From Alphaproteobacteria bacterium (GTDB lineage Bacteria; Pseudomonadota; Alphaproteobacteria; Rhodobacterales; Rhodobacteraceae), in NCBI GenBank assembly GCA_030425145.1, contig JAUHVK010000003.1, forward strand, positions 124,001 to 188,000: a stretch of DNA of 64,000 bases. The letters are read 5' to 3'. This document shows, in pieces, positions 5,233-38,790 of the stretch. Position 1 is the first letter of the stretch, and each line of letters opens with the position of its first letter. Made by a program: the position numbers and the translations under genes. The notes under the pieces were generated by a model. The model did not search any database, had not been told where the DNA came from, and saw nothing but the letters and a program-made list of their open reading frames with translations.

Positions 5233-5272
5233 GGATGGGTCGACCCATCCGGCGTTTGCGTTGACGCAAACG
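5233..5272. repeat. Tandem palindrome element A (glmM / serine hydrolase junction)
   Basis: Two adjacent dyads fill the gap between convergent genes. GGATGGGTCGACCCATCC (5233-5250) is an 18-bp perfect palindrome. CGTTTGCGTTGACGCAAACG (5253-5272) has 9-bp arms and a TG centre. No T-run follows either one. The same design recurs at five other gene ends in the window. Confidence 0.8.
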
Positions 5273-5282
5273 GAGCCAAGCG

Positions 5283-6221
5283 TCAGCGGTCACGCAGAAA
5301 CGACGCCAAACCATTTGCTAAGGCGTGGAACTGCGCCGGCTTGACCACTGGTTTGTCATACCCCATCGCCGCCACCGCGCCGGATGGGTAGACCAAGGCG
5401 AAGGCACCGGTCTTTGGCCCGAACGGGATCGCAATTGCCCCGGCGTGGGACATCCGGAACCCGGTCTCCTCAGCCTCGTAGTTCATGCCCAGCCCGTAAA
5501 AGCTGCCTTCGGCGCGCTTTATGTGCGGCAGCGCCAGCGGATCGCGCCCGACCCGGCCTTCCAGCCCGAACCAGTGCCAGAGCAGCGCCGCATGATCCGC
5601 CATTGTCATCCGCCAACCGCCCCAAGCGGCAAAGCCTCCGAAACGCAGTGACAGGTCTCCAGACACGCCTGCGGGGTCGAAAACCCGGGCCCGGCAGGCA
5701 TCGGCATATGTTTCACCAGTGGCCTGTTCGATGATCCGGCCCAAGAGCGCATAGTTCTCGTTGTTGTAGACAAATTTTCCTCGCGTTCCGCGCTGGCGAC
5801 CGCGGTTCAGGACAATGTCTGTCACATGGGCATGGCGGGGTTCGACTTCGTTCAGCCAAAACCCCATGCGAAGCTGGGTCGAGTCCCATCCGATCCCGGC
5901 GCTGTGGGTGACAAGTTCAGCCACCGTCCCCGAGGGCGCGTCTTGCCCCAACGCATCCGTCAGCGTCATGTCCCAGGCCAGCGTGCCCTCGTCCACAAGC
6001 GCCAGCACACAGAGCGCGGTGACAACTTTAGAATTGGAAGCCAAGTCATGCGGGGTGTCTGGCATCAGTGCTTCGGCCGCCACTCCGTTTCGCATCACCT
6101 GCATCAAGGCGGTGTCAGCTCCCGCCTTGTGCGCCCAGGACTGGAAATAAGCCACGGGATCAGACGCGACAACCGGTGGTGCCGCACCGAACCCCAACAA
6201 AAAAGCCAGAAGGCGTGTCAT
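5283..6221 (-). CDS. Exported serine hydrolase, beta-lactamase/PBP-like (class C fold)
   Basis: The 312-residue protein has a signal peptide (MTRLLAFLLGFGAAPPVVAS) and a beta-lactamase-type serine hydrolase domain. The nucleophile motif SxxK is seen as SNSK at residues 62-65, and the YxN motif as YNN near residue 154 (KFVYNNENYALLGR). The third motif is less clear. Families of this kind include D-amino-peptidases, esterases and class C-like enzymes, so the substrate cannot be told. It lies 50 bp downstream of proS on the same strand and may be co-transcribed with it. Confidence 0.8.
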   Translation of the reverse strand: MTRLLAFLLGFGAAPPVVASDPVAYFQSWAHKAGADTALMQVMRNGVAAEALMPDTPHDLASNSKVVTALCVLALVDEGTLAWDMTLTDALGQDAPSGTVAELVTHSAGIGWDSTQLRMGFWLNEVEPRHAHVTDIVLNRGRQRGTRGKFVYNNENYALLGRIIEQATGETYADACRARVFDPAGVSGDLSLRFGGFAAWGGWRMTMADHAALLWHWFGLEGRVGRDPLALPHIKRAEGSFYGLGMNYEAEETGFRMSHAGAIAIPFGPKTGAFALVYPSGAVAAMGYDKPVVKPAQFHALANGLASFLRDR

Positions 6222-6271
6222 GCCTTCTGGCTAACAAATGTGCTCCGCCCCGTTCAAGGGGTGGGTGTGCT

Positions 6272-7615
6272 TCAAGCGGTCGCTTTGCCGTAGATGGTGG
6301 CAATCCGCGCGATCGCCTGTTCGGGCGGCAGTTCTTCACTTTCGCCCGTGCGGCGCGAGGTCAGTTCGACAACGCCGTTCTTGAGCCCGCGCGGACCGAC
6401 GGTGATCCGCCACGGCAGGCCGATCAGGTCCATCGTGGCGAACTTGGCCCCGGCCCGTTCGCTGCGATCGTCGTACAGCGGCTCGAGGCCCAGCGCGGTC
6501 AGGCTGGCATAGAGCGCGTCGCAGGCGGCATCGGCTTCATTGTCGCCCTGCTTGAGGTTGACGATCCCGCAGTGGAACGGCGTCACGCCTTCGGGCCAGA
6601 TGATGCCGTTGTCGTCATGGCTGGCTTCGATGATCGCGCCCAGAAGGCGGCTCACGCCGATCCCGTGCGACCCCATATGCACTGGAACCTTGTTGCCCTC
6701 GGCATCGGCCACGGTTGCGCCCATCGCGTCGGAATACTTGGTGCCGAAGTAGAAGATCTGGCCCACTTCGATGCCGCGCGCGGTGCGGCGGCGCTCTTCG
6801 GGCACCTTGGCGAATTCAGCCACGTCATGGGTTTCGTCGGTGCGGGCGTAGCGCGAGGTGAACTCTTCGAGCACGGCCTGGCACTGTTCTACACTATCAT
6901 AGTCAATTGCACGGTCGCCGAATTTCAGATCGGTGATCTCGCTGTCATAGAACACCTCGGACTCGCCGGTTTCAGCCAGCACAAGGAATTCATGGGTGTC
7001 GTCGCCACCGATGGGGCCGGAATCGGCGCGCATCGGGATCGCTTGCAGGCCCATGCGTTCATAGGTGCGCAGGTAGCTTACAAGGTGACGGTTATAGGCG
7101 TGCAGCGCGTCTTCCTTGGTCAGGTCGAAATTGTAGCCGTCCTTCATCAGGAATTCACGGCCGCGCATCACGCCGAAGCGCGGGCGGATCTCGTCGCGGA
7201 ATTTCCACTGGATGTGGTAGAGCGTCAGCGGCAGGTCCTTGTAGCTGCCGACATGGCTGCGGAAGATGTCTGTGATCAGCTCTTCGTTCGTGGGACCGTA
7301 GAGCATGTCGCGACCGTGACGGTCGGTGATGCGAAGCATTTCCTGACCGTAATCGTCGTAGCGCCCGGATTCGCGCCAGAGGTCTGCCGATTGCAGCGTC
7401 GGCATCAGCATCGGAATATGGCCCGCGCGGACCTGTTCCTCATGCACGATCTGCTCGATGTTGCGCAGCACCTTATAGCCCAGCGGAAGCCAGGAATAGA
7501 TGCCCGCAGACGCCTGCTTGATCATGCCGGCACGCAGCATCAGCCGATGGCTGACGATCTGTGCCTCGGCGGGGGTTTCCTTGAGAACGGGCAAAAAATA
7601 GCGGGACAGACGCAT
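6272..7615 (-). CDS. proS: Prolyl-tRNA synthetase (short alphaproteobacterial type)
   Basis: This class II synthetase charges tRNA-Pro. At 447 residues it lacks the ~180-residue editing insertion of the E. coli type, matching the compact alphaproteobacterial/mitochondrial form. Visible motifs are LYGPTNEE, the motif 2 region [16 protein letters not shown], and motif 3 [13 protein letters not shown]. The start at 7615 gives [13 protein letters not shown], the typical N-terminus; a farther in-frame ATG would add 19 unconserved residues. Without the insertion, proofreading of Ala-tRNA-Pro would need a separate factor, which I do not see here. Confidence 0.96.
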
Positions 7616-7768
7616 CTGGGACCTCTGATCGGTGGTTTGGCCCGTCCTAGCGGGTTGCATCGGCACCGACAAGTGCCGGACGCGATGCAGGTGATTGGTA
7701 CGGTCTTTGCATGGGGTTAAGGCCGGAGCCGATTGCCACCACGATCGGCCATCACGATCGGGATGTGA

Positions 7769-9514
7769 ATGAGCGAGACCGCGACTTTGTCACTGCATGT
7801 GTCGCAGCTTGCGATGCAGGGGGTCGGCATCGCCGGGGTGCTTGGGCTTGTCGCCCTTGCGGGCCGGGGGCGGGCGCGGACTCGCGCGGGACAACAGGTC
7901 TCCTCAAAGGGCGCAGCGGCGCCCAAGCCCGTAATGTTTATCCGCCGTGCCGTTACAAAGCGTCGACTGGCCAGACGCCTGGCCCGAACCACTCAGCAGT
8001 TGCACAAGTGTGAACCCATTGGCTCGAAAGTGCCGGACGGGACCGACACCCGGATCAACGCATTGCTATCGTTAGAACGCATTGCACAGGACGCGGTGCG
8101 CCACGGTGCCGGACATTTGCATATCCGCGCGATGGAGGCTCTCTGCGCTTTTGTCCGCGAGGCTGCCCCCGCTGCGAAAGCGAGCGATTATCCTTTGCCC
8201 GACTGGGAGCCTCTGGGCGACACGCCGACAGAAGACGAGAAGGCTCATCATTTGGTCCTACGGGACACCCGGTTTGCCAATCTGGTGAACTCCAATGCAC
8301 GTGACTGGGCCATGAACCTGACGCCCCCGCGCAAAGACATACAGTTGGCATTGCGCATCATCGGTCGCCGCACGCGGGATCAATGCGTGGCCGAAGCCGC
8401 CGTATCATCGGACAGGCAAACGCCGGGTGTCTCGGTGTTCGACACGCCCTGCCCCGAGCTTGAGCCATGTGGCGCAGTGGCGAAAAACGATATCGCACAC
8501 ATCAACCAGTTCCAAGCTGACCTTCGCGGCTGGAAAGACACTCTGGCGGCCTATCGAGGGTATCGCCCCGACCTGCGGGATACAAATCTTCAGGCGGCCG
8601 ACCTGTCGGGCCTGAACCTGAGCGGCTTCCGTCTGGACCGCGCACGACTTGAGGGTGCCGTGATGCGAGAGGCGCTTCTAGATGGTGCGATTCTGCGCGG
8701 CGCACGAATGGAGGGAGCAGAGCTCCGCAATGCCCGGCTGCGCGGAGCCGATCTGCGTCGCGCACGACTCGAAGGGGCCTGTTTGCGAAACGTAGAGATG
8801 CAAGGCGCGGACTTGCGCAATACGCGTTTGGAATGGGTCAACTTCCAATACGCGCGGCTCGAAGGCGCGGAGTTCCACGCCGCACAAATGGAGGTCGCCT
8901 CTTTCTACAAGGCAAACTTGCAAGGCGCTGTTTTTTTTAGAGCCATGATGGACAGCGCCGTCCTCTACCAATCCCGCCTCGACGGTGCCGACATGCGGGA
9001 AGCAAGCCTAAGATGGACCAACATGCGGGACTCCCGGTTGGACGGCGCGCTGCTCAGTAGTGCGAGACTGGACGGGGCAGATCTTGGCGCGGCACTCTTG
9101 CATGGCGTTGATCTTTTCGAAGCCCGGCTCGACGGGGCCGCTTTTCACCGGGCACAGGTTTGCGGGGTGATCTTCTCCAAACCCGACGCTGACGGATATA
9201 CGTCTGTGCTGGAGACGAATTTCCAGCAGACCCTGCTTACGCAGGTGGATCTCAGCTTGGTGCCCATCAACCAATCACAGATCGACCAATGTCTCGGCGA
9301 CGACAGCGTGATCCTGCCTGAGCGGATCAGAACGCCACAGCATTGGACCCTCAGCACAGATGCCGACACCCTGCTCCAAAAATGGCACCAATGGCGCGGT
9401 GCCGCAGCGCTGAAACGAAAAGACCCTGAAAACAGCGGGTGCGACACGCCTGAAAGCGCCGAAACACGCAGTTTACCAGACCTGTCGGAAGCGCCGCACA
9501 GCGACCCCCTTTGA
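7769..9514 (+). CDS. Pentapeptide-repeat protein with N-terminal hydrophobic segment
   Basis: The 581-residue product has three parts. Residues ~12-30 form one hydrophobic stretch ([14 protein letters not shown]), perhaps a membrane anchor. Residues ~90-260 include a helical block ([17 protein letters not shown] and a region ending FVREAAP) that I recall from other Rhodobacteraceae pentapeptide proteins. Residues ~271-470 are about 40 consecutive A(D/N)LXX-type pentapeptides (for example [17 protein letters not shown]), which should fold as a right-handed quadrilateral beta-helix of about ten coils. Function is unknown; the Qnr/MfpA gyrase mimics share only the repeat fold. It is divergent from proS, and a sensor kinase gene follows after 70 bp. 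Confidence 0.8.
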
Positions 9515-9584
9515 CCTGTAGACATTACCAACTAAATCAACCAGCTTGGGGTTTAGTGAAGAGTTCGTGGGGGACCACTCAATA

Positions 9585-11066
9585 ATGAGCACCGATGTCT
9601 TTGCGTCAGGTATTTCCGACGAAAACAGTACCATAAAAGACATCCTGGCACTGGGTTTCGAAGCCGTTCCATTTGCCGCGCTGTTTTATCTCCCGGATGA
9701 CCGCCTGACACTTCTTTGGCGCAACTCGGCGCATGCGGTGATGTCCAGCTCAGTCGGAGTCGACATATCGGGCATGGGCATGTTCGAGGCATTCCCCCCC
9801 AGTTCGGATGCCGAAGGCTCGGATGCTGTGAATTTCATCCGCATTGCCACCAGCGAAATCATGAACACCGGCGAGCCGCAGGAGGTGGGACCAGCGCGGT
9901 TCGACCTTTTGAACGACGAAGGCCACTACGTCGAACATCACTGGCAGATGCATTTTGCCCCGATCCACAAGGACGGCAAAATCATTGCAATCCTCCAGAC
10001 CGCGCGTGACGTAACCGAGGCCACGCTGACCGCGCGTTTGGCGCAAAGCCACCGACGCGCTGCGACGTCAACAGCGTCGGTCGCCTATTTCAGCTACGAC
10101 CCGGAAACCGATCTGTTCCTGAGACACGACGCCATCGACGCCATGTTCGGCTTTGAGCCTGACGAGGCCGGACCTTATGCCGCTCCCTTCTTTGAGCGGG
10201 TTCACAAGGACGACATCGAGGCCGTTCATGCCGAAGTCGCCCGCGTACTGGCCGCGCCGCATGGCGAAATCGCCTCCTTCGATTACCGCGTGCCGCTGCC
10301 TTCGGGCGAAGAGCGCTTTGTCCGTATCCGTGGCGAAATCGCAACCGACCCGGTGGACCGGCGCGCCAAACTGGTCGGCACCTTTGTCGATCTGACCGAT
10401 ATCGAAACCGCGCGGCGCGACTTGCAAAAGGCGGTGAAGGTCCGCGAGGCGCTGGTGGTCGAGGCCAATCACCGGATCAAGAACAGCCTTCAGATCGCGC
10501 TATCGCTGCTGCGTCTGCAATCCAGCAAACTGATGGTCGCCGGCGGCCCGGCTGCCGACAAAGCGCGAGACGCCTTGCGCGCCGTGGAATCGCGCGTACG
10601 TGCGGTTGCCGACGTCCACGCTGCAATTCAGATTGACGACGATGTTGCCCGGATCGACCTCGTCAACCTGTTCAACCGACTGGTTCAATCCATCCGGAAA
10701 AGCGCGGAACTGCCGGAAACAGCGATGGTCTTCAATCACCCCTCAGAGGTGATTCCACTCAAGAGCGATACGGCCATCGCCCTCAGCCTGATGCTGAATG
10801 AATTGCTGACAAATGCGATCAAATATGGGGCACCGCGCAAAGGAACACCGGTCACACTCGACCTTTCAATTGTTGACGGCAACATGCTGAAATTCACTGT
10901 CGCCAACACCGACCTCAATACAGAGGCCACTCGGCTCGACATCGACAGCTCGGGCACCGGCGAACGACTCGTTCAGCAGTTTGCGCTTCAGATCGGGGCC
11001 GAGATCGACCGTCAGAAAGATGGCAAGCAGGTTGTGGCCACGATCACCATGCCGCTGGACACCTGA
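9585..11066 (+). CDS. Soluble PAS-PAS sensor histidine kinase, HisKA_2 family
   Basis: The 493-residue protein has no membrane segment. A first PAS-like region spans about residues 15-155 (GFEAVPFAALFYLPDD), a second about 160-285 ending GTFVDLTDIE, a typical PAS C-cap. The phosphoacceptor block EANHRIKNSLQIALSLLRLQ is of the HisKA_2/HWE type, followed by a HATPase region with the N-box LNELLTNAIKYG. No response-regulator gene is adjacent. In alphaproteobacteria such orphan kinases often feed the general stress response; that is inference here. The ATG at 9585 has a GGGGG ribosome-binding site at about 9570; a TTG at 9546 is the alternative start. Confidence 0.85.
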   Translation: MSTDVFASGISDENSTIKDILALGFEAVPFAALFYLPDDRLTLLWRNSAHAVMSSSVGVDISGMGMFEAFPPSSDAEGSDAVNFIRIATSEIMNTGEPQEVGPARFDLLNDEGHYVEHHWQMHFAPIHKDGKIIAILQTARDVTEATLTARLAQSHRRAATSTASVAYFSYDPETDLFLRHDAIDAMFGFEPDEAGPYAAPFFERVHKDDIEAVHAEVARVLAAPHGEIASFDYRVPLPSGEERFVRIRGEIATDPVDRRAKLVGTFVDLTDIETARRDLQKAVKVREALVVEANHRIKNSLQIALSLLRLQSSKLMVAGGPAADKARDALRAVESRVRAVADVHAAIQIDDDVARIDLVNLFNRLVQSIRKSAELPETAMVFNHPSEVIPLKSDTAIALSLMLNELLTNAIKYGAPRKGTPVTLDLSIVDGNMLKFTVANTDLNTEATRLDIDSSGTGERLVQQFALQIGAEIDRQKDGKQVVATITMPLDT

Positions 11067-11234
11067 CACGCGCTGAATAGCCCTTCTTAGCCGACACTTC
11101 GGCTACCCTGCGTGCGCGTTCTTTCCTGGGAATTCCCCTCACGCTTGCCCCCAGGCGCATCAAAGCGGGGCGTGCTCTCTTGAAACCCGGTGTCGGACAG
11201 GCAATGTAGGGGCAAGGTTTTTGGGGCATTTGGT

Positions 11235-12302
11235 ATGGCACTTCCCGCACGGGATCAGCTGAAGTACTGGGGCATTGCAGCGGCGGTGTTTGCTGTGGTG
11301 CTGTGGTTTCTCGGCGATGTTCTGTTGCCCTTCGTGCTGGGTGGCGCGATTGCCTATTTCCTCGATCCAGTTGCAGATCGGCTTGAACGGATGGGGTTCA
11401 GCCGGGTCATGGCCACGGCAATCATCACGGTGGTCGGCGTTCTGGCCTTTGTGCTTCTGCTCCTCTGGGTGATCCCGTCGCTGGTGAACCAGGCGCTTGA
11501 TTTGTTCGACGTGGCCCCCACCCTGTTCGCCAATCTGCGTGATTTCCTGATCGAACGCTTCCCCGACCTGATGGACACTGAAAGCCCGCTGCGCCAGTCG
11601 CTTGTCTCGGTCGGCGAAACCATCCAATCGCGCGGGGGAGAATTGCTCAACACCGTGCTGAGTTCGGCTGCGGGCATCATCAATATCGTGATGCTGTTCG
11701 TGATCGTGCCAGTGGTGGCGGTTTACCTGCTGCTCGACTGGGACAACATGGTGGCACGCATTGACCAACTGCTGCCCCGAGACCACGCACCCACGATACG
11801 CAGACTGGCGGCCGACATAGACGCAACGCTGGCCAGTTTCATTCGCGGCATGGGTACCGTCTGCATCATTCTGGGCACCTATTACGCGGCAGCCCTGATG
11901 CTGATCGGGCTGCAATTCGGACTGGTTGTCGGCTTCGTCGCGGGTCTGGTTACCTTCATCCCCTATCTTGGCGCGCTGATCGGCGGGGCGCTGGCGATTG
12001 GCCTTGCGCTGTTCCAGTTCTGGGGTGATTGGCTGTCCATCGGTATGGTGGCGGGCGTGTTTGTTCTAGGACAGGTGATCGAAGGCAATGTGCTGACACC
12101 GAAACTCGTAGGGTCGTCGGTCGGCCTGCACCCGGTCTGGCTGATCCTTGCTCTGTCGATCTTCGGCACGCTCTTCGGCTTTGTCGGGATGCTGGTGGCA
12201 GTGCCCGTCGCCGCCTCTATCGGCGTGATAACGCGCTTTGCCGCGCAACAGTATCTTCAAAGCCGCCTGTACCGCGGTCTGAGTGATCAGGACACGGAAT
12301 AA
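11235..12302 (+). CDS. AI-2E family transporter (PerM-like permease)
   Basis: The 355-residue polytopic membrane protein has about eight hydrophobic segments and the arrangement of the AI-2E/PerM family, with a conserved C-terminal half (GLVTFIPYLGALIGGALAIGLALFQ split by short loops, then GNVLTPKLVGSSVGLHP and FGFVGMLVAVPVAA). Members export autoinducer-2 in some bacteria or act as Na+/H+ antiporters in others; the substrate cannot be told. ATG 11235 was preferred over an in-frame GTG at 11190. Its stop overlaps the hdaA ATG by one base (TAATG), so the two genes are likely translated together. Confidence 0.88.
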   Translation: MALPARDQLKYWGIAAAVFAVVLWFLGDVLLPFVLGGAIAYFLDPVADRLERMGFSRVMATAIITVVGVLAFVLLLLWVIPSLVNQALDLFDVAPTLFANLRDFLIERFPDLMDTESPLRQSLVSVGETIQSRGGELLNTVLSSAAGIINIVMLFVIVPVVAVYLLLDWDNMVARIDQLLPRDHAPTIRRLAADIDATLASFIRGMGTVCIILGTYYAAALMLIGLQFGLVVGFVAGLVTFIPYLGALIGGALAIGLALFQFWGDWLSIGMVAGVFVLGQVIEGNVLTPKLVGSSVGLHPVWLILALSIFGTLFGFVGMLVAVPVAASIGVITRFAAQQYLQSRLYRGLSDQDTE

Positions 12303-12997: not shown

Positions 12998-13064
12998 AAA
13001 GTCCGAGTGATGACCTGGAGCACGGCGTCACCCAACTGTCACGCGCCGCCGCTAAAGGAGCATC

Positions 13065-15239: not shown

Positions 15240-15241
15240 CG

Positions 15242-15261
15242 CGGGCTCAGCGCCCGTTTTT
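15242..15261 (+). terminator. Short intrinsic terminator after ppk, overlapping panE stop
   Basis: A 5-bp GC stem (CGGGC 15242-15246 with GCCCG 15252-15256) is followed by five T residues (15257-15261). It overlaps the 3' end of the convergent panE gene. Confidence 0.6.
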
Positions 15262-16164: not shown

Positions 16165-16197
16165 GTGATATCTCCCCCGGTATTCTTACATGATCGG

Positions 16198-16210
16198 GGT
16201 CAGTCTGACC
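16198..16210. promoter_or_regulatory. Candidate operator GGTCAG-T-CTGACC
   Basis: A perfect 13-bp dyad (GGTCAG T CTGACC) sits 34 bp upstream of the panE start in the 165-bp gap between divergent panE and ppx. Its form resembles GntR- or LysR-type operators. No such regulator gene is nearby. Confidence 0.35.
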
Positions 16211-17877: not shown

Positions 17878-17948
17878 CGGACGCGCCTACGCGTCCGGCG
17901 TTTCCGTCGACGGAAACGCGCACCCGGCATTTTACCAATTGGTAAAAT
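17878..17948. repeat. Triple palindrome element B (ppx / DUF3422 junction)
   Basis: Three dyads fill the 71-bp gap between convergent genes. Dyad 1 (17878-17897) has arms CGGACGCG and CGCGTCCG with a CCTA loop. Dyad 2 (17898-17919) is a perfect 22-bp palindrome with core TTTCCGTCGACGGAAA. Dyad 3 (17929-17948), ATTTTACCAATTGGTAAAAT, is a perfect AT-rich palindrome ending at the DUF3422 stop codon. Dyads 1 and 2 resemble the pairs at 5.24, 32.45 and 38.75 kb. Confidence 0.8.
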
Positions 17949-20072: not shown

Positions 20073-20074
20073 AA

Positions 20075-20102
20075 AAACCCCGCATCCTGCGATGCGGGGT
20101 TT
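20075..20102. terminator. Bidirectional intrinsic terminator
   Basis: A perfect 11-bp stem, AAACCCCGCAT (20075-20085) with ATGCGGGGTTT (20092-20102), and a 6-base loop lie between convergent genes. A-runs on one side and T-runs on the other allow action in both directions. Confidence 0.85.
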
Positions 20103-27131: not shown

Positions 27132-27204
27132 GGCGCACGCTCCGTCTTCACCTTCGGTTGCGCGCGTTCTAGGGTCAGGGCGAGTAAAGCGCAAGCGAGG
27201 CCAA

Positions 27205-28755: not shown

Positions 28756-28765
28756 CCAACGCGCG

Positions 28766-28832
28766 GAAGCGATTTCGAAATCGCTTCAAAGCCCATGTGC
28801 ATGGGCTTTTTCAACGCGTTTCGAAACGCGTT
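28766..28832. repeat. Triple palindrome element C (after xseA)
   Basis: Three dyads in tandem: 28766-28787, a perfect 22-bp palindrome centred on TTTCGAAA; 28788-28809, arms AAAGCCCATG and CATGGGCTTT around TG, running into five T residues, so it may terminate xseA; and 28813-28832, AACGCGTTTCGAAACGCGTT, perfect. No other feature is visible before ymdB at 28892. Confidence 0.8.
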
Positions 28833-28891
28833 CTCTTCTGGCGCCGGTTTGCCTCTTTGCTTTCGCCACCTCCCGCTCTAATCCTCTGGGC

Positions 28892-30624: not shown

Positions 30625-30642
30625 AACAAAGGACCCCACCCC

Positions 30643-32427
30643 GTGCTCACTGCACTGATCGACCTCGACCAGACCACGCAGGCCATGCTGGCCCTTGGCA
30701 CAGTGGCAGTCATGTTCGCGCTGTTTGTGCGCGAGACCTATCCGACCGAAGTCGTGGCCATCGGTGGGGTGGCGTTTCTTCTGGCAACAGGGGTTCTGCC
30801 CTACGGTGACGCATTGGACGTTCTGTCGAACCCCGCCCCCTGGACCATCGCGGCGATGTTCCTGGTAATGGGCGCCTTGGTGCGCACAGGTGCGCTCAAC
30901 GCCTTTACCAATGCCGCGCAATCGGCGGTGCAGAAAAGCCCAAAACGCGCGATGACGGGGATCATCGGTGTGGTCATTGTCGCCTCGGCCTTCATGAACA
31001 ACACGCCTGTCGTGGTGGTCATGCTGCCGCTCTTCGTGCAACTGGCGAAAACCCTTGGGCTGGCCCCGTCGAAACTGCTGATCCCGCTCAGCTATGCCGC
31101 CATCCTCGGCGGCACGTTGACCCTGATCGGCACTTCCACGAACCTACTGGTCGATGGTGTGGCCCGCGCGCAGGGGCTTGAGCCCTTCTCCATCTTCGAA
31201 GTGACCCCGCTGGCGGTGGTTCTGATCGCGTGGGGCATGTTCTATCTCTGGGCCTTTGGCCGCTACCTTCTGCCAGAACGCACCAGTATGGCTGCGATGC
31301 TGTCAGACCGGTCAAAGATGAAGTTCTTCACCGAAGCGGTGATCCCGCCCGACAGCAACCTCATCGGCCGTGAGGTACAGGGCGTACAGCTTTTCAAACG
31401 CGACGGGGTGCGCCTGATCGACGTGATCCGCGGCGATGCCTCGCTGCGCCGTAACCTTGATGGCGTGACGCTTCAGGTGGGTGACCGCGTGGTGCTACGC
31501 ACACAGATGACCGAACTCCTGAGCCTGCAACGCAACAAGGAATTGCGCCGGGTGGATCAGGTTTCGGCGGTGGAAACCACCACGGTCGAAGTGCTGATCA
31601 CTCCGGTCTGCAAGATGGTAGGCCGTCGTCTGGGTGCGATGCGCCTGCGGCGGCGTTATGGTGTCTACCCGCTGGCGGTGCACCGGCGGAATCAGAATAT
31701 CGGGCGACAACTCGATGATCTGGTGGTGCGCGTGGGCGACACGCTGCTGATCGAAGGCGCACCCGAGGACATCCAGCGTATGGCGGAAGAACTCAACCTC
31801 GTGGATGTGGCCAAACCCTCGGCTCGCGCCTACCGCCGCAGCCATGCCCCTATCGCCATTGCGGCGCTCGCGGGCCTCGTTCTGCTGGCCGCCTTCGGTG
31901 TGGCCCCGATCCTTGCGCTGGCAATCATCGCCGTAGCGGTGGTGCTGCTGACGAAATGTGTCGACTCGGACGAAGCGTTTTCCTTTGTCGAAGGCCAGCT
32001 CCTTGCGCTCATCTTTGCGATGCTGGCCATCGGCGCAGCCTTGGAAGCGTCAGGCGCGGTGACGCTGATCGTCGAAGGTCTGGCCCCCTATATGATGAAC
32101 CTGCCGCCCTGGGCGATTGTCTGGGCGATCTACCTGCTGACCAGCCTGCTCACCGAACTGGTCAGCAACAACGCAGTGGCGGTGGTGGTTACGCCCATTG
32201 CCATCGGGTTGGCGCAGGTGATGGGGATCGACCCCAGACCTCTGGTGGTGGCGGTGATGGTGTCGGCGTCCTGCGCGTTTGCCACGCCCATCGGATACCA
32301 GACCAACACATTGGTCTACGGGCCGGGCGGCTATTCGTTTGCGGATTTCCTGAAAGTCGGTGTGCCCTTGAACCTGACCGTGGGCATGCTGGCCTCGGCC
32401 CTCATCCCGCTGATCTGGCCGTTCTAA
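30643..32427 (+). CDS. SLC13/CitT-type permease with TrkA-C (RCK_C) domains
   Basis: The 594-residue permease has N-terminal helices (residues ~10-215), two cytoplasmic TrkA-C domains (~225-310 and ~310-395, with LIGREVQGVQLFKRDGV and GRRLGAMRLRRRYGVYPLAV), and a second helix group to the end. SNTT-like and NNAVAVVVTPIAIGLA motifs match the divalent-anion/Na+ symporter (SLC13) family, whose substrates include sulfate and dicarboxylates. The start is GTG at 30643, preceded by AAAGGA about 10 bp upstream. It follows the DMT gene by 18 bp. Confidence 0.85.
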   Translation: MLTALIDLDQTTQAMLALGTVAVMFALFVRETYPTEVVAIGGVAFLLATGVLPYGDALDVLSNPAPWTIAAMFLVMGALVRTGALNAFTNAAQSAVQKSPKRAMTGIIGVVIVASAFMNNTPVVVVMLPLFVQLAKTLGLAPSKLLIPLSYAAILGGTLTLIGTSTNLLVDGVARAQGLEPFSIFEVTPLAVVLIAWGMFYLWAFGRYLLPERTSMAAMLSDRSKMKFFTEAVIPPDSNLIGREVQGVQLFKRDGVRLIDVIRGDASLRRNLDGVTLQVGDRVVLRTQMTELLSLQRNKELRRVDQVSAVETTTVEVLITPVCKMVGRRLGAMRLRRRYGVYPLAVHRRNQNIGRQLDDLVVRVGDTLLIEGAPEDIQRMAEELNLVDVAKPSARAYRRSHAPIAIAALAGLVLLAAFGVAPILALAIIAVAVVLLTKCVDSDEAFSFVEGQLLALIFAMLAIGAALEASGAVTLIVEGLAPYMMNLPPWAIVWAIYLLTSLLTELVSNNAVAVVVTPIAIGLAQVMGIDPRPLVVAVMVSASCAFATPIGYQTNTLVYGPGGYSFADFLKVGVPLNLTVGMLASALIPLIWPF

Positions 32428-32432
32428 CGCGC

Positions 32433-32475
32433 CCGATGCGTCGACGCATCGGAGGGTTCCGTCGACGGAACCCTC
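32433..32475. repeat. Twin palindrome element D (SLC13 / GATase junction)
   Basis: CCGATGCGTCGACGCATCGG (32433-32452) is a perfect 20-bp palindrome. It shares one base with a second perfect palindrome of 24 bp (32452-32475, core GGTTCCGTCGACGGAACC) that includes part of the convergent amidotransferase stop codon. Both are centred on TCGA. Confidence 0.82.
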
Positions 32476-33211
32476 ACACGCCGTAGCGCACCACGAACCG
32501 GCGCAGGATTTCGACAGGCACGGTCACGTCGCTGGCGTGGCACATGGCGATAAGGTCATCCGCCGTCTCGGGCGCAAAATACCCCTTGTGGCGATAGATG
32601 CGGATCCGGTCCTCGAACACGCCCGCATCCGCCTCGGGGTGGAACTGCGTGGCATAGACGTTCTGCCCGAACCGGATCATCTGAAAAGGGCACGGGTCTG
32701 ACGCCAGCAGATGCACGCACCCCTCCGGCAAGTCCTGCACCGCCTCTTTGTGGCCGACAAACGCGTCGAATGCCCCCGGCAGCCCAGCCACCAGCGGGTC
32801 CACCGCACCTTCGACCGTCACGCGGCAGGTCACTGGCCCGACCGGTTCGCCATAGCGCCGCTTGGACACCTCGGCCCCCAGATGGTGCCCCAAAATGCCG
32901 ATACCGTAACAACAGCCCATGAACGGCACGTCCCGTTCCGTAATCTCGGGCATGAGCGACAGGATCTCCGCCTCAATCCGCGCCTCAACCGGGTCTTTGG
33001 TGGCCGGATCATCCGACACACAGCCCGGCCCGCCGCCAACGATGACCCCAGCATAGTCGCCCAGCCGCAACCCGTCTGGCAGTGGCTCCCGGTCAAGGCA
33101 GATGCGATGGACCTGTGCCTCGGTGAGACCTCCCTTTTCAAGGAATGCGGCGAATTCGCCATCACTGGCTTCGGCCTCGGGGCGCAATTGCAGGATCAGA
33201 AACGGTTTCAT
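32474..33211 (-). CDS. Type 1 glutamine amidotransferase (GMP synthase-like)
   Basis: The 245-residue protein is a class I glutamine amidotransferase domain. GVIVGGGPGCVSDD precedes the nucleophile block VPFMGCCYGIGILGHHLG (cysteine in GCCYG), and the histidine-glutamate pair is in ATQFHPEAD. Free-standing members of this type hydrolyse glutamine or gamma-glutamyl compounds; the acceptor is unknown. The start at 33211 gives MKPFLILQLRPEAEASDGE. It is divergent from yebC across 122 bp. Confidence 0.85.
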   Translation of the reverse strand: MKPFLILQLRPEAEASDGEFAAFLEKGGLTEAQVHRICLDREPLPDGLRLGDYAGVIVGGGPGCVSDDPATKDPVEARIEAEILSLMPEITERDVPFMGCCYGIGILGHHLGAEVSKRRYGEPVGPVTCRVTVEGAVDPLVAGLPGAFDAFVGHKEAVQDLPEGCVHLLASDPCPFQMIRFGQNVYATQFHPEADAGVFEDRIRIYRHKGYFAPETADDLIAMCHASDVTVPVEILRRFVVRYGV

Positions 33212-33333
33212 ACCGATCTCATACCCAACGCCGCCCCACACGCAAACCTCGAAAACGCAACTTGTTCCCGCCCCGCCTTCTGCGCTAAAGACGCCAAAAC
33301 TTCTCGACATCCGACAATCAAGGACAGGACACC

Positions 33334-34074
33334 ATGGCCGGCCATTCCAAATGGGCAAACATCCAGCACCGCAAGGGTCGTCAGGACAAGATGCGGGCCA
33401 AGCTGTTTTCGAAGCTCTCCAAAGAGATCACCGTCGCCGCAAAAATGGGCGACCCCGATCCCGACAAGAACCCGCGCCTGCGCCTCGCGGTGAAAGAAGC
33501 GCGCGGTCAGTCCATGCCGAAGGACAACATCGAACGCGCCATCAAGAAAGCCTCCGGTGGCGAGGGCGAGGATTACGAAGAAATCCGGTACGAGGGTTAC
33601 GGCCCGAACGGCGTTGCCGTGATCGTAGAGGCGATGACCGACAACCGCAACCGCACGGCGTCCAACGTGCGCTCCACTTTCACCAAGAACGGTGGCAACT
33701 TGGGCGAGACCGGTTCGGTCGGTTTCATGTTCGACCGCAAGGGTGAAATCACATACCCCGCCGATGCAGGCGATGCCGACACGGTTATGATGGCCGCCAT
33801 CGAAGCTGGCGCCGAAGACGTGGAAAGCAGCGAAGACGGCCACATCATCTGGTGCGCCGACACCGATCTGAACGAGGTCGCCACCGCGCTCGAAGCCGAG
33901 CTTGGCGAATCCGACTCGACCAAGCTGGTCTGGAAGCCGACCACCACAACCGAGCTTGACCTCGACGGGATGCAGTCGCTGATGAAGCTTGTGGATGCGT
34001 TGGAAGACGATGACGACGTCCAGCGCGTCACCACCAACTTCGAGGCCACTGACGAGGTCATGGCCCAACTCTGA
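33334..34074 (+). CDS. yebC: YebC/PmpR family regulator
   Basis: The 246-residue protein matches YebC throughout: [46 protein letters not shown] in pieces, [23 protein letters not shown]-like ([15 protein letters not shown]) and [11 protein letters not shown]. Family members act as DNA-binding regulators or, as shown more recently for TACO1/YebC, help ribosomes through proline-rich stretches. ruvC, a frequent neighbour in other genomes, is absent here. Confidence 0.95.
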
Positions 34075-34081
34075 GACCGGC

Positions 34082-34151
34082 GCCAAGGGCGGTCGACCGC
34101 CCTTGGCCGCGTTTTCGAAAACGCGGGATCAAGCGCCTTCCAAGGCGCTTG
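34082..34151. repeat. Triple palindrome element E (yebC / FG-GAP junction)
   Basis: 34082-34107 is a perfect 26-bp palindrome centred on GGTCGACC. It overlaps by one base CCGCGTTTTCGAAAACGCGG (34107-34126), also perfect. The third dyad (34130-34151) has 10-bp arms CAAGCGCCTT and AAGGCGCTTG around CC. Together they fill almost the whole gap between convergent genes. Confidence 0.82.
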
Positions 34152-34154
34152 CCC

Positions 34155-34904
34155 TCAACAGCCCAGCGCACGCTCCATCGCATCGGGCGTATATGGCCCC
34201 AGCACGGTTTCCGTCAGACCCGCACCGTCAAACCGCACCGCGACCACGTTTGACCATCCCGCATCGGCCAACACCATCTCCGGCCCCTGCCCGCAGTCAC
34301 GCAGACCCCCGGCGATATAATCCCAGCCGATCCGGTGATTGGTCACACCGCCCAGCGACGCCACTTCGCTCAGCCGGACCTGCCCCGCGCCCAGTGGCTC
34401 ATACCGCCAGACGCGCAGCACCTTCGCAAGGTGCGGGCGATCGACATAGGCCAGTTCCACCAGCCCGTCGCCATCCAGATCCGCCACAGCGGCGGGTGCC
34501 AGCCAGCGGAACCGCGTTCCAATAAAAGGTGTCGTCGCTTTGGCAGCCAGCGTGCCATCGACCAGCCCCCAGACAGCCAGCCGTGCGCCCTGCCGTTCGT
34601 GGCTTTCGACCACCACCACTTCGGGCGCGCCGTCGCCATCCACATCCACCACGCGGGGGGACAGGTCTTCGAACACGATGTCCTGTGCCCAGCGCGCCGA
34701 CATCTCCCGTCCATCGCTCAGGCGCACTGTCAGGGTGTCATACTCGACCTCGTCGCCCAAAACGCCATGCGGATAGCGTGTGGTCGGACCGTCATAGCGG
34801 GCAGACACGATCTCCTGCGCCGCGGCCTGTGACGCGAGCCCGGCACACAGCCAGACAGCCGCGCCGCGAGCCCAAGACTGCATCAGGCGGCGCGGAACCC
34901 ACAT
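34155..34904 (-). CDS. Exported FG-GAP/VCBS-repeat protein
   Basis: The 249-residue product carries a signal peptide (AVWLCAGLASQAAAQE) and a beta-propeller-like body with calcium-binding DxDxDG repeats, seen as DVDGDGAPEVVVV and DLDGDGLVELAYVD. These repeats occur in integrin-like propellers and secreted bacterial proteins; the partner is unknown. The start could be 34904 (4 bp after the ferredoxin stop) or 34883, which gives a tighter signal peptide (MQSWARGAAVWLCAG). It shares an operon with the ferredoxin upstream. Confidence 0.75.
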   Translation of the reverse strand: MWVPRRLMQSWARGAAVWLCAGLASQAAAQEIVSARYDGPTTRYPHGVLGDEVEYDTLTVRLSDGREMSARWAQDIVFEDLSPRVVDVDGDGAPEVVVVESHERQGARLAVWGLVDGTLAAKATTPFIGTRFRWLAPAAVADLDGDGLVELAYVDRPHLAKVLRVWRYEPLGAGQVRLSEVASLGGVTNHRIGWDYIAGGLRDCGQGPEMVLADAGWSNVVAVRFDGAGLTETVLGPYTPDAMERALGC

Positions 34905-34908
34905 CGGA

Positions 34909-35310
<402 letters not shown>

Positions 35311-35430
35311 TCACTGTCATAGCCCTACCCCACGGCCTGTCGTGCGTTTCGGCACGGTTCCGCGCAGCGACGCGGTCTTCCGGTGGCGTTCTTTTGCGTC
35401 TCTGGATTGTCGAGTTCCGCGCCGTCATGA

Positions 35431-35450
35431 ATTTTACCAAACGGTCAAAA
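35431..35450. promoter_or_regulatory. Imperfect dyad ATTTTACCAAACGGTCAAAA in a 360-bp gap
   Basis: The 35233-35592 gap is less GC-rich than its surroundings. It holds ATTTTACCAA-ACGGTCAAAA, whose left half equals that of the perfect palindrome at 17929-17948. The ACCAAACGGT centre resembles TetR-type operators. Apart from this and the SOS-like box, I see no gene or RNA in the gap. Confidence 0.35.
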
Positions 35451-35575
35451 AATGCGCCTTGCATCCCATGGATTGGCGGTCCTCACTTACTCACTCGGCA
35501 GGGCCTTGCGTCATTTACGCCAGATGACGCGATCCGAATTCCGCAGAAATTGCGGGCTTGCACTGCACGGCAGAT

Positions 35576-35590
35576 GTTCTACTTTTGTTC
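35576..35590 (+). promoter_or_regulatory. Candidate LexA (SOS) box GTTC-N7-GTTC
   Basis: GTTC at 35576-35579 and GTTC at 35587-35590 are separated by seven bases, the direct-repeat LexA site known in alphaproteobacteria. It ends 2 bp before an ATG that opens the DnaE2-derived reading frame. A box of this kind normally controls imuA-imuB-dnaE2. Confidence 0.55.
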
Positions 35591-35592
35591 AC

Positions 35593-36000
35593 ATGCGAGT
35601 TGTCACCCCCCGCCCCAGCAGAACCGACTGGCCCCGTCCGCCCTCGTGCCTGTGCGCCGACCAGTTGCGCCTGCCGCCCGACAACGCGCGGATCACGGTG
35701 GCGGGGCTGGTGATCCTGCGGCAGCGCCCCGGCACCGCCAAGGGGGTGATCTTCCTCACGCTTGAGGACGAGACCGGGGTGGTGAACGTGATCGTCTGGC
35801 GCAGGCTTTACGAACGCTACCGCCGCGCGGTGATTGCAGGGCGCTTGCTGCGCGTCACCGGGCGGCTGCAAAGCGAGGGTGACGTGATCCATGTGATCGC
35901 CGAGGTGATCGAGGACATCTCGCCAATGCTGGATCAGCTTCTGGCCCCCGCATCCGAGGTGGAGCCAGAGGCGCTTTCGCCAGAGGACCAAACAGGCTAG
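35593..36000 (+). pseudogene. dnaE2: C-terminal OB-fold remnant of error-prone polymerase DnaE2 (ImuC)
   Basis: Residues ~30-115 of this 135-codon frame match the last domain of DnaE2: [53 protein letters not shown]. Full DnaE2 is over 1000 residues and acts with ImuA/ImuB in SOS mutagenesis; the PHP, polymerase and thumb domains are missing, and no imuA or imuB is nearby. The first ~25 residues ([16 protein letters not shown]) are not DnaE2-like. The frame is intact and GC-rich, so it could be expressed as a free OB-fold protein. Alternative in-frame ATGs are at 35452 and 35524; 35593 directly follows the LexA-like box. Confidence 0.7.
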
Positions 36001-36042
36001 ACTGCGCCCAAGCAGAAACAGGCAAACAGGCGCACATCCTCC

Positions 36043-36594
36043 GTGACCCCTCCCCCGTCAGCGATCCGGGCTCTGTGGGCCGTGGCCTTGGCCGGTCTTG
36101 CGGCCTGTGCCGGACCGCAGCCTTACGGTGGCGACGTGGCGGATGTGCCTGTGCCCGATTTCGCCTCGGCCCAGATCGCCCCGCCCCCCGGCGTGCGCCC
36201 GGATGGCTGCTGGGTCCGCGATGTGGCACCGGCCGAATTGCAGACCATCACCCGCCAGATCGAAGTGGCGCCCGCGCAGTTTGACGCCGCAGGCCAGAAA
36301 ATCGCCCCGGCCCGGTTCCGCACCGAGACCGCGCAGGTGATCCTGCGCGAGCGGCAGGCGCTGATCTTCGAGACCCCCTGCCCCGATGTCCTGACCCCCG
36401 ACCTGATCGCAACCCTGCAACGGGCGCTGGACGCGCGCGGGCTGTACCGGGGGCCGATCACCGGGGTGATGGATGTGCCGACCCGTCTGGCGGTGCGACG
36501 CTACCAGAGCGCAAACGGGTTGCCGAGCGGCCTGCTGTCGATCCAGTCGGCCCGCAGCCTTGGCCTTCTGGCCACGCCGCGCGACCAGTTGTGA
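36043..36594 (+). CDS. Peptidoglycan-binding lipoprotein
   Basis: The 183-residue protein begins (GTG) with a short lipoprotein signal ending in the lipobox LAAC (cysteine at about residue 22). The C-terminal ~65 residues form a PG_binding_1 domain: LIATLQRALDARGLYRGPITG and TRLAVRRYQSANGLPSG split by a short linker, with the usual final leucine-rich SARSLGLL. The central part is unrecognised. It is probably a wall-anchored outer-membrane lipoprotein. It follows the DnaE2 remnant by 42 bp. Confidence 0.8.
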   Translation: MTPPPSAIRALWAVALAGLAACAGPQPYGGDVADVPVPDFASAQIAPPPGVRPDGCWVRDVAPAELQTITRQIEVAPAQFDAAGQKIAPARFRTETAQVILRERQALIFETPCPDVLTPDLIATLQRALDARGLYRGPITGVMDVPTRLAVRRYQSANGLPSGLLSIQSARSLGLLATPRDQL

Positions 36595-36617
36595 TCGGAC
36601 GACTCGGCTCAGGCAAG

Positions 36618-36733
36618 TTTGCACCTCAGAGTTTGCAACTTTGCAAAATCGAGGCTCAAGCAAAGAAACTCTGCATAACAGCGGCGAGTTTGCAAAAGTT
36701 TGCAATTTGATAGCGCCAAAACTGCAAAGTTTT
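36618..36733. promoter_or_regulatory. Cluster of TTTGCAA motifs upstream of prpE
   Basis: TTTGC occurs at 36618, 36632, 36640, 36689 and 36699, with inverted GCAAA at 36660 and 36724. Two close pairs stand out: TTTGCAACTTTGCAAAA (36632-36648) and TTTGCAAAAGTTTGCAA (36689-36705). Tandem TTTGCAAA-like sites are bound by short-chain acyl-CoA responsive regulators (ScfR/PccR/RamB family) at propionate and acetate genes in other bacteria. The cluster lies 93-208 bp upstream of the prpE start. Confidence 0.6.
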
Positions 36734-36825
36734 TGCGGCCTTCTGCCGCGCGATGGATCGCGAGACTTGCCGCAACGTTCAGCGCGCCGTACCCCATGGG
36801 CAACACGTCACAGGAGGAAATCGGG

Positions 36826-38718
36826 ATGGGCTACCAAGAGGTGTATGAGAGTTGGAAATCCGACCCGGAAGGGTTCTGGATGCAGCAGGCCGAGGCGATT
36901 GACTGGGACCGCAAACCCAGCAAAGCGCTGTTCGAGGTCGGTGAGAACCTCTACGAATGGTTCGCGGACGGCCAGACAAACACATGCTGGAACGCGGTCG
37001 ACCGCCATGTCGAGGCTGGGCGCGGCGGACAGGTGGCGATCATCCATGACAGCCCGATCACCGGCACCCTGCACAAGATCACCTATGCCGAACTGCGCAA
37101 CCGCGTCGCCCGTCTGGCCGGTGCGCTGCGCGCCAAGGGTGTGGAAAAAGGCGACCGCGTCATCATCTATATGCCGATGGTGCCCGAAGCGCTGGAGGCG
37201 ATGCTCGCATGTTCGCGCCTTGGAGCCATCCACTCGGTGGTATTCGGCGGCTTCGCGGCCAACGAACTGGCCGTCCGCATCGACGACGCGAAACCCAAGG
37301 CAATCATCGCCGCCTCCTGCGGGCTCGAGCCGGGACGTGTGGTGCATTACAAACCGCTGCTCGACGGGGCCATCGACCTAGCCACCCACAAGCCGGATTT
37401 CTGCGTGATCTTCCAGCGCGAGCAGGAAGTCGCGCATCTGGAAGAAGGCCGCGACTATGACTGGCATGGGTTCCAATACGGCGTCGAACCCGCAGACTGT
37501 GTCCCGGTCGAAGGCAACCACCCCGCCTATATCCTCTACACCTCCGGCACCACAGGCGCGCCGAAAGGCGTGATCCGCCATACCGGCGGCCACCTGGTGG
37601 CGTTGAACTGGACGATGAAGAACATCTACAATGTCGATCCGGGCGATGTGTTCTGGGCGGCCTCGGACGTCGGCTGGGTCGTGGGCCACAGCTATATCTG
37701 CTACGCGCCGCTGGTGCACGGCAACACCACCATCGTGTTCGAGGGCAAGCCTGTGGGCACGCCGGACGCCGGCACGTTCTGGCGGGTCATTTCGGAACAC
37801 AAGGTCCGCAGTTTCTTCACCGCCCCTACCGCGTTCCGCGCGGTGAAGCGGGACGACCCCAAGGGCGAATATGTCGGCAAGTATGACATCTCCTGCCTGC
37901 GCGCGATCTACCTTGCGGGCGAACGGGCGGATCCGGACACGATCGAATGGGCGCAGAAGGTCACTGGCAAGCCGATCTATGACCACTGGTGGCAGACCGA
38001 AACGGGCTGGACCATCGCGGGTATGCCGGCAGGCATCGAAGCGCTGCCGGTCAAGATCGGCTCTCCCTCGGTGCCGATGCCGGGTTACGACGTGCAGATC
38101 CTCGACGAGGCGGGCCATCCGATGAAACCGGGTGAGCTGGGTGCGATTGCGGTCAAACTGCCCCTTCCCCCGGGCACGCTGCCGACGCTGTGGAATGCCG
38201 AGGACCGGTTCCGCAAATCCTACCTGTCGCACTTCCCCGGCTATTATGAGACCGGCGATGCGGGCATGATCGACGAGGACGGATACCTCTACATCATGGC
38301 GCGCACCGATGACGTGATCAACGTCGCGGGCCACCGCCTGTCGACGGGTGGTATGGAAGAAGTTCTGGCCGCCCACCCCGACGTGGCAGAATGCGCGGTG
38401 ATCGGCGTGACCGATCAGCTCAAGGGCCAGTTGCCGATGGGCTTTGTCTGCCTGACCACTGGCGTGAACCGCCCGCATGACGAGATCACCAAGGAATGTG
38501 TGAAGCTGGTGCGCGACAAGATCGGCCCGGTTGCGGCGTTCAAGCTCTGCGCGGTCGTGGACCGTCTGCCGAAGACCCGGTCCGGCAAGATCCTGCGGGC
38601 AACCATGGTCAAGATCGCGGACAGCGAAGAGTTCAAGATGCCCGCAACCATCGACGATCCGGCCATTCTGGACGAGATCAAGGTCGCCTTGCAGGCGATG
38701 GGTTACGCGAAAGGCTAA
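36826..38718 (+). CDS. prpE: Propionyl-CoA synthetase
   Basis: The 630-residue AMP-forming acyl-CoA synthetase activates propionate. The opening GYQEVYESWKSDPEGFW and the length match PrpE more than acetyl-CoA synthetase. Adenylation motifs present are YILYTSGTTGAPKGVIRHTG, DHWWQTETGW, YYETGDAG and the acetylatable lysine motif RLPKTRSGKILRATM. The ATG at 36826 has a perfect AGGAGG 8 bp upstream; an in-frame ATG at 36796 is less well placed. The upstream TTTGCAA cluster points to control by propionyl-CoA or related acyl-CoA. Confidence 0.93.
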   Translation: MGYQEVYESWKSDPEGFWMQQAEAIDWDRKPSKALFEVGENLYEWFADGQTNTCWNAVDRHVEAGRGGQVAIIHDSPITGTLHKITYAELRNRVARLAGALRAKGVEKGDRVIIYMPMVPEALEAMLACSRLGAIHSVVFGGFAANELAVRIDDAKPKAIIAASCGLEPGRVVHYKPLLDGAIDLATHKPDFCVIFQREQEVAHLEEGRDYDWHGFQYGVEPADCVPVEGNHPAYILYTSGTTGAPKGVIRHTGGHLVALNWTMKNIYNVDPGDVFWAASDVGWVVGHSYICYAPLVHGNTTIVFEGKPVGTPDAGTFWRVISEHKVRSFFTAPTAFRAVKRDDPKGEYVGKYDISCLRAIYLAGERADPDTIEWAQKVTGKPIYDHWWQTETGWTIAGMPAGIEALPVKIGSPSVPMPGYDVQILDEAGHPMKPGELGAIAVKLPLPPGTLPTLWNAEDRFRKSYLSHFPGYYETGDAGMIDEDGYLYIMARTDDVINVAGHRLSTGGMEEVLAAHPDVAECAVIGVTDQLKGQLPMGFVCLTTGVNRPHDEITKECVKLVRDKIGPVAAFKLCAVVDRLPKTRSGKILRATMVKIADSEEFKMPATIDDPAILDEIKVALQAMGYAKG

Positions 38719-38729
38719 AGCCGGGGAAC

Positions 38730-38790
38730 GGATGCGCCGGCGCATCCTTTTTCCGTTGACGGAAAAACCCCGCGCCTGTGGCGCGGGGTT
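38730..38790. repeat. Triple palindrome element F (after prpE), last hairpin terminator-like
   Basis: GGATGCGCCGGCGCATCC (38730-38747) is perfect and runs into five T residues. TTTTTCCGTTGACGGAAAAA (38748-38767) has 9-bp arms around TG. A third hairpin (38766-38790) has arms AACCCCGCGCC and GGCGCGGGGTT with a TGT loop. The first or third could terminate prpE; the first two match the pair type at 5.24 and 32.45 kb. Confidence 0.82.

Follow-up and report, generated by a model that had tools for sequence, protein, structure and literature searches.

Six intergenic spots in a 64,000-nucleotide stretch of an alphaproteobacterial genome (contig JAUHVK010000003.1, positions 124,001 to 188,000; hereafter the window) each hold two or three back-to-back, mostly perfect, loopless palindromes. 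A single dispersed element, here called A-B, accounts for four of these spots (5232-5272, 17878-17919, 32433-32475 and 38729-38767). It consists of palindrome A (NNGATGCGTCGACGCATCNN), 0-2 bp, and palindrome B (NNTTTCCGTYGACGGAAANN), two units of about 20 bp each that differ in sequence and whose centres are about 21-22 bp apart. The element is dispersed through its genome, is confined to its genus, lies at the 3' ends of genes in both orders relative to the stop codon, and varies by paired Watson-Crick changes. On balance, its sequence features incline us to regard A-B as a Marivita-confined, untagged extragenic repeat resembling repetitive extragenic palindromes (REPs), an element of transcription-unit ends whose symmetry is probably kept up at the level of DNA.

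The spots, numbered E1 to E6 along the window, had been picked out in a sequence-only reading as six members of a single family. That reading was correct about the palindromes themselves, about the two-part design shared by four loci (E1, E2, E4 and E6, the A-B copies) and about the position of four spots between convergent genes (those at 5233, 17878, 32433 and 34082; the spots at 28766 and 38730 lie between codirectional genes). The single family gave way to two wordings: E3 (28766-28832) and E5 (34082-34151) are palindrome arrays, mostly with TTCGAA or GTCGAC centres and with arms unlike those of A-B. What these arrays have in common with A-B is architecture and place, not wording, and among their units are some with the shape of an ordinary terminator.

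The A-B element is dispersed in its genome and confined to Marivita

The window belongs to a 4.9-Mb assembly whose nearest named relatives, by the protein of its transporter gene, are five Marivita loci (90-97% identity), and we take its genus to be Marivita. In this genome we found 12 places with the B core TTCCGTCGACGGAA and 19 with the A core GATGCGTCGACGCATC, and no matches to the reversed control of the former or to the control of the latter. A covariance model built from 14 A-B copies yielded at least 43 matches (E ≤2.3e-6), a lower bound because only 43 candidates were scored; counts from the genus-wide search with this model, such as 99 in this genome, include opposite-strand partial matches and are not copy numbers. 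The copies that the sequence-only reading had expected elsewhere thus exist, and they extend to the genus: the model matched in 17/17 Marivita genomes and, under stricter filters than those applied to Marivita, in 1/148 other genomes of the family. The sole match outside the genus, in genome G018, consists of two tandem B-like palindromes behind a TGA. The exact B core was present in 16/17 genus genomes, in 2/44 other genera of the family and in 0/40 genomes of other families, and in that survey its control scored a single hit in each of two genomes of other families and none elsewhere. A search for the paired centre CGTNGACG-N12-15-CGTNGACG gave 34 strand matches in the window's genome (symmetric places being counted twice) and none for the control; across 394 genomes, no other genome exceeded 6 matches, and the control reached up to 7 in one genome (G332). 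A Paracoccaceae metagenome-assembled genome (locus L122, position 20375) carries a four-palindrome array with GTCGAC and TTCGAA centres, and three paired-centre places of similar wording were seen in G368. In the open-licence literature of PubMed Central (PMC), we recognised no description of the A-B element.

Chance or base composition as the origin of the palindromes was ruled out by shuffled sequence and by the reversed-pattern controls. We scanned for palindromes with arms ≥10 bp and a centre ≤4 nt, using dinucleotide shuffles (three for the window) as the control. The window contained 12 palindromes, of which those at 20075 and 25203 belong to none of the six spots, against a mean of 0.6 in the shuffles, and a 464-kb sample of the same genome contained 45 against 2.3. 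Tandem clusters, defined as ≥2 palindrome units ≤10 bp apart, numbered 13 in this sample, or 8 in a stricter scan that forbade overlapping arms. Among 80 related loci (1.66 Mb) there were 20 tandem clusters, compared with none in one shuffle of each locus; 11 clusters came from three of the five Marivita loci, and the other 75 loci held nine.

Copies lie just past stop codons

With genes called by a codon-score gene caller, all 13 tandem clusters of the 464-kb sample were intergenic and adjoined a gene 3' end, and none lay between divergent genes. The 43 A-B copies of this genome were distributed in the same manner: 22 between convergent genes, 20 between codirectional genes, one overlapping a called gene, and none between divergent genes. 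A larger set of 137 distinct copies, drawn from this and other Marivita genomes, comprised 65 convergent, 67 codirectional and 1 divergent copies, with 2 in called genes and 2 at locus edges. Codirectional copies were found a median of 12 nt past the stop codon and 110 nt ahead of the next start; 46/67 lay ≤20 nt from the stop and 0/67 ≤20 nt from the next start. Among convergent copies, 58/65 were ≤20 nt from a stop.

The 137 copies were located with a Python finder that demanded 6/8 pairs per palindrome. It was stricter than the covariance model, recovering 39 copies in the window's genome while missing E6 in the window and visibly palindromic transporter-end copies of G001 and G011. The consensus set was assembled from 81 of 197 model matches, plus 8 sites of the window's genome from loci outside that search; matches of ≤34.5 bits, the overlapping opposite-strand match at L219 2005-2042 and a duplicate place (L026/L207) were dropped.

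In some copies B is followed directly by a third repeat, which reads approximately GGGGC-nnn-GCCCC followed by CCCCGARGTATTT and ends in an AGAGAAG-like sequence. It was seen in 8/39 copies of the window's genome (L200, L206, L210, L213, L215, L219, L043 and L033) and in 7/98 others; its orientation was constant, and it never preceded A. Occurrences of its core number three in the 464-kb sample, none in 400 kb of G007 and six in 1.56 Mb from other genera. A-B and this repeat may form a larger composite.

Paired variation and the G.U versus A.C test

The sequence-only reading held that arms differ by paired changes that preserve the dyad. This is borne out: 2111/2192 arm cells in the 137 copies were Watson-Crick pairs. 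Although the finder demanded just 6/8 pairs, the outermost two pairs were complementary in 117/137 copies of A and 115/137 of B, with 14 different outer dinucleotides occurring in A and 10 in B. The inner six bases and the GTYGAC centre are conserved in the consensus set. The centre of A was TCGA in 97/137 copies, and the spacer between A and B was 1 nt in 92/137, 2 nt in 43 and 0 nt in 2. As a check for covariation, raw MAFFT alignments gave a more moderate picture, because decayed and replaced copies were included: 130/254 double changes were complementary, against 101/337 for controls with slid partners, and the one-sided changes comprised 80 G.U, 79 A.C and 181 other combinations. Fourteen hand-picked palindromes, a set biased by choice, had 36 cells changed on both sides and none on one side.

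G.U in the transcribed strand is acceptable to an RNA stem and A.C is not, so the two mismatch classes offer a means of asking at which level symmetry is maintained. On the sense strand of codirectional A-B copies we counted 9 G.U and 12 A.C mismatches, whereas 28 T-tailed hairpins at codirectional ends in the samples of the window's genome and G007 had 11 G.U and 2 A.C (Fisher p 0.03). In the units of E3 and E6, the two codirectional spots, there were 3 G.U and 4 A.C. Convergent copies, read on the A-to-B strand, had 10 of each, and 4 G.U and 5 A.C were counted in T-tailed hairpins between convergent genes; such near-even counts are expected there under any model.

The centre of B is itself asymmetric, reading TTGA often and TCAA rarely on the A-to-B strand (61 vs 5). 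The xxGA form was also present on this strand when it was antisense to the gene (10/10 asymmetric centres, in 19 B-proximal copies). Since it is retained whichever strand is transcribed, it is a feature of the element rather than of the transcript. The lack of a sense-strand G.U excess in A-B, together with its presence in T-tailed terminators of the same genomes, favours upkeep at the level of DNA, in so far as these small numbers allow, and the RNA hairpins that the sequence-only reading had offered as one explanation lose support accordingly.

History at orthologous gene ends

A-B copies recur ≤140 nt past the stop codons of orthologous genes: at 10/17 glmM ends, 5/12 Ppx-type ends, 8/17 transporter ends and 5/7 acetyl-CoA synthetase-type ends (the finder misses a few). 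At these ends the other genomes had decayed remnants, nothing, or, in G004, a copy from which A alone was lost. Among orthologous pair cells, 78 had changes in both partners that preserved the pairing.

The element has also been amplified locally. Three copies 103-105 bp apart were found in both G011 and G001 (loci L240 and L241; only the better strand was displayed), and the glmM end carries three copies in G001 (L144 12300-12760) and two in G003. The three glmM-end copies of G001 are all on one strand and are separated by spacers, with no alternation, and the last two share flanking bases, which suggests tandem duplication.

At some ends the wording itself differs between lineages. In G005, G010 and G014, which do not form one clade in a weakly supported single-gene tree, the place of A-B at the transporter end is taken by palindromes in tandem with TTCGAA or TTGCAA centres. 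Among five Salipiger loci, the same end bears a third tandem wording in L062 and L063, one scored unit in L059, and none in L054 and L077. The Salipiger wording, CAAGATTTTT...AAAAATCTTG, is found near 11790 in L062, near 11779 in L063 and in part in L059; L077 carries such tandem palindromes elsewhere, at 8948. From the exchange within Marivita and the third wording in some Salipiger, we tentatively raise the idea of a 'palindrome slot', in which at least two perfect dyads are kept after a stop codon and their wording is swapped between lineages; template switching at the DNA level might perfect the dyads and so produce RNA-like covariation without RNA structure. We hold this to be less probable than not.

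Comparison with known palindromic systems

A-B fits the general sense of a REP, a palindromic repeat of 20-40 bp that recurs many times in a genome, outside genes and chiefly at their 3' ends. CGTC-tagged REPs, as described by Di Nocera et al. (2013; PMC3733652), are commonest in Alphaproteobacteria, frequently occur as dimers and have no dedicated transposase; their stems are 8-9 bp and their loops 4-5, convergent copies lie ≤20 bp from both stops, and unidirectional ones lie near the upstream 3' end. A-B resembles them in stem and loop sizes, in its dimeric build, in closeness to 3' ends and in the lack of a dedicated transposase. It differs from them in lacking the defining unpaired CGTC tag and CCA-type tail, in a centre that is mostly self-complementary, and in being built of two differing units in fixed order, 0-2 bp apart. 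In the flanks of 39 copies of the window's genome there was no consensus of the unpaired CGTC or CCA-like kind, CGTC instead sitting inside the dyad; the information content of these flanks showed a G-rich 5' side and, on the 3' side, C at the first and a weak G at the fifth position. Because the unpaired tag is missing, we file A-B as REP-like and not as a CGTC REP.

Dispersed extragenic palindromes in local clusters with spacers are equally characteristic of GTAG REPs, of the paired REPs known as REPINs and of bacterial interspersed mosaic elements (BIMEs), which are associated with REP-associated tyrosine transposases (RAYTs). A-B lacks their GTAG (none in the flanks of the 39 copies) and, in its own genome, a Y1 transposase (0 matches to Y1_Tnp). 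G-T stem pairs are frequent in GTAG families, according to PMC3733652, whereas G.U is not favoured in A-B, and the alternating orientation that marks BIMEs, along with regular spacing, was not seen in the one-strand cluster at the G001 glmM end.

Like intrinsic and bidirectional terminators, A-B has hairpins past stop codons and is commonest between convergent genes. Unlike them, it is mostly loopless, shows no G.U excess, repeats one wording at many places, and in 40/43 copies of its genome is followed by no T-run (≥4 T in the 8 nt past the element, on either strand; 3/43 have one). The sequence-only reading had noted a lack of T-runs at most of the spots; two units call for correction, 28788-28809, which is followed by TTTTT and resembles an ordinary terminator, and 38766-38790, whose orthologue in G006 has a T-run.

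No match to Rfam reached the gathering score in the window. A DNA-uptake-sequence model was rejected, as the A half word GATGCGTC was not enriched outside A-B in the 464-kb sample (26 vs 37.9 expected); the B half word TTTCCGTC occurred there 23 times against 19.1 expected. The TTCGAA-class word ATTTCGAAAT was enriched (10 vs 1.0).

Proposed DNA-level upkeep and its rivals

Under the DNA-level reading that we favour, any action of A-B would be that of a DNA element that marks where transcription units end. Adjacent hairpins or cruciforms of DNA, two per copy, may form and could, for example, absorb supercoils or hinder the passage of polymerase, so that bidirectional punctuation or a supercoil sink are conceivable roles. 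Template switching between the arms during replication, along with selection, would re-perfect the dyads, and selection on an RNA stem would not be the cause. One study (PMC8794818) describes template-switch upkeep of hairpins as a mutational route to paired changes without G.U intermediates; it concerns RNA genes, and its extension to intergenic DNA palindromes is our conjecture. The element may have spread in an ancestor of the genus by means of some mobiliser and is presumably now inherited mainly vertically.

Several observations pull the other way. The mismatch test draws on 21 mismatches in A-B, from copies that are not all independent, and 13 in T-tailed hairpins; two of the latter hairpins come from the window itself (E3 unit 2 and E6 A); and in the convergent half of the copies, RNA selection acting on both strands would likewise erase a G.U signal. 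Among orthologous pair cells, 89 one-sided changes were as frequent as paired ones and a further 44 were two-sided without pairing, which speaks against template switching, and absences at orthologous ends look like decay or deletion. Abundance within the genus is uneven as well: the sequenced strain M. hallyeonensis DSM 29431 is poor in A-B, the exact B core is absent from the Marivita genome G010, and G015, the only other Marivita in the draw of 394 genomes, had 1 paired-centre match and 1 for the control, so A-B is not equally common across the genus. Finally, A plus the T-rich arm of B gave a weak terminator score in 14/43 copies, and A stood next to the stop in 14 codirectional copies of the window's genome and B in 6 (48 A-proximal to 19 B-proximal over all codirectional copies).

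The main rival is a bidirectional role in RNA, in which hairpins in both convergent transcripts stop polymerase or protect mRNA 3' ends. It owes this standing to the convergent half of the copies and to the low mismatch counts; we think it considerably less probable than not, while giving it real weight. It accounts well for placement right past stops and for the excess of convergent gaps (19/38 copies of the window's genome vs 39/205 gaps with a 3' end; p 1e-4). Stable RNA hairpins are predicted for each of the six loci (z from -3.7 to -5.7), the TTCGAA arrays include terminator-like units, and T-tailed terminators were found at just 47/232 A-B-free gene ends of the sample (gaps ≥30 nt), so that another device could be useful. 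The weak terminator score and the lean of single copies towards A beside the stop fit it too. Counted by gene family, the order shrinks to 16 A-proximal against 12 B-proximal, with no family mixing orders: there may be a lean towards A beside the stop, but there is no rule, and the notion of A plus the T-rich B arm as a directional terminator receives little support. The 9:12 mismatch ratio and the scarcity of T-runs directly past the element tell against an RNA role, as does the TCGA centre of A, since an RNA loop needs no self-complementarity. Nor does A-B appear to replace conventional terminators, which were neither clearly rarer nor commoner where it was present: T-tailed terminators stood at 18/130 convergent and 9/67 codirectional A-B ends, and at 18/112 and 26/327 element-free ends. 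Within the survey that gave the element-free figures, the convergent and codirectional counts were 1/10 and 1/2 at A-B ends and 0/12 and 2/5 at other tandem palindromes.

Two further explanations start from the form of the element. In one, A and B are paired operator-like sites, spaced by two helical turns, for a DNA-binding protein dimer, which would suit the fixed spacer, the conserved inner six bases and the GTYGAC centre; this is nevertheless improbable, and fixed protein-binding sites, another proposal of the sequence-only reading, fit poorly, because the outer arms vary yet stay complementary. In three relatives one and the same gene end carries a different wording, the centre of B is asymmetric between the strands, there is no enrichment of the A half word outside A-B, and the site lies past stops and not ahead of promoters. 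That reading's 'mobile REP-like family' comes nearest to what we found, in that A-B is dispersed, extragenic, palindromic, genus-confined, at 3' ends and locally amplified. The mobile part of it fares worse, and a REPIN currently moved by a RAYT transposase is very unlikely: the check for such a transposase returned Y1_Tnp in 4/17 Marivita genomes (G004, G008, G014 and G016) and in none of the other 13, although A-B is matched in all 17; the flanks bear neither a GTAG nor a CGTC tag, and no gene family mixes orders. A RAYT-driven REPIN was rejected for the window's genome on the absence of Y1_Tnp.

Features of the window

The palindromes of the six spots are collected in Table 1. In E2, the centre of palindrome A is CCTA in the window and TCGA in G001, G011, G012 and G014. 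Downstream of E2, positions 17929-17948 hold ATTTTACCAATTGGTAAAAT, a loopless palindrome of wording unlike A or B that looks operator-like; a near copy, ATTTTACCAAGTGGTAAAAT, is found in the same genome at C102:110956.

Table 1. Palindromic units at the six spots of the window.
Feature	Sequence	Coordinates	Strand	Remarks
E1 palindrome A	CGGATGGGTCGACCCATCCG	5232..5251	+	8 nt past glmM stop (glmM by TIGR01455)
E1 palindrome B	CGTTTGCGTTGACGCAAACG	5253..5272	+	TTTGCG wording recurs at most B-keeping orthologous glmM ends
E2 palindrome A	CGGACGCGCCTACGCGTCCG	17878..17897	+	immediately past Ppx/GppA-type stop
E2 palindrome B	GCGTTTCCGTCGACGGAAACGC	17898..17919	+	
E3 unit 1	GAAGCGATTTCGAAATCGCTTC	28766..28787	.	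TTCGAA-centred array, behind xseA
E3 unit 2	AAAGCCCATGTGCATGGGCTTT	28788..28809	.	TTTTT follows; terminator-like; TTCGAA centre in several relatives
E3 unit 3	AACGCGTTTCGAAACGCGTT	28813..28832	.	
E4 palindrome A	CCGATGCGTCGACGCATCGG	32433..32452	+	behind anion-transporter-like gene
E4 palindrome B	GAGGGTTCCGTCGACGGAACCCTC	32452..32475	+	extends into stop codon of convergent glutamine amidotransferase gene
E5 unit 1	GCCAAGGGCGGTCGACCGCCCTTGGC	34082..34107	.	behind YebC-family gene
E5 unit 2	CCGCGTTTTCGAAAACGCGG	34107..34126	.	
E5 unit 3	CAAGCGCCTTCCAAGGCGCTTG	34130..34151	.	T-run after orthologue in G004, G013 and G016
E6 palindrome A	core GGATGCGCCGGCGCATCC at 38730-38747	38729..38748	+	behind acetyl-CoA synthetase-type gene
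E6 palindrome B	TTTTTCCGTTGACGGAAAAA	38748..38767	+	
E6 third hairpin	AACCCCGCGCC-TGT-GGCGCGGGGTT	38766..38790	+	terminator-like; outside A-B

Implications

A-B adds to the known extragenic palindromes a genus-confined, untagged REP-like element composed of two fixed modules and with no known transposase. Many sequenced relatives carry it, and gain, loss and the exchange of words can therefore be traced at the same gene ends. The comparison of G.U with A.C mismatches provides a way to separate DNA-level from RNA-level upkeep of symmetry, and it makes plain that compensatory changes alone do not prove RNA function.

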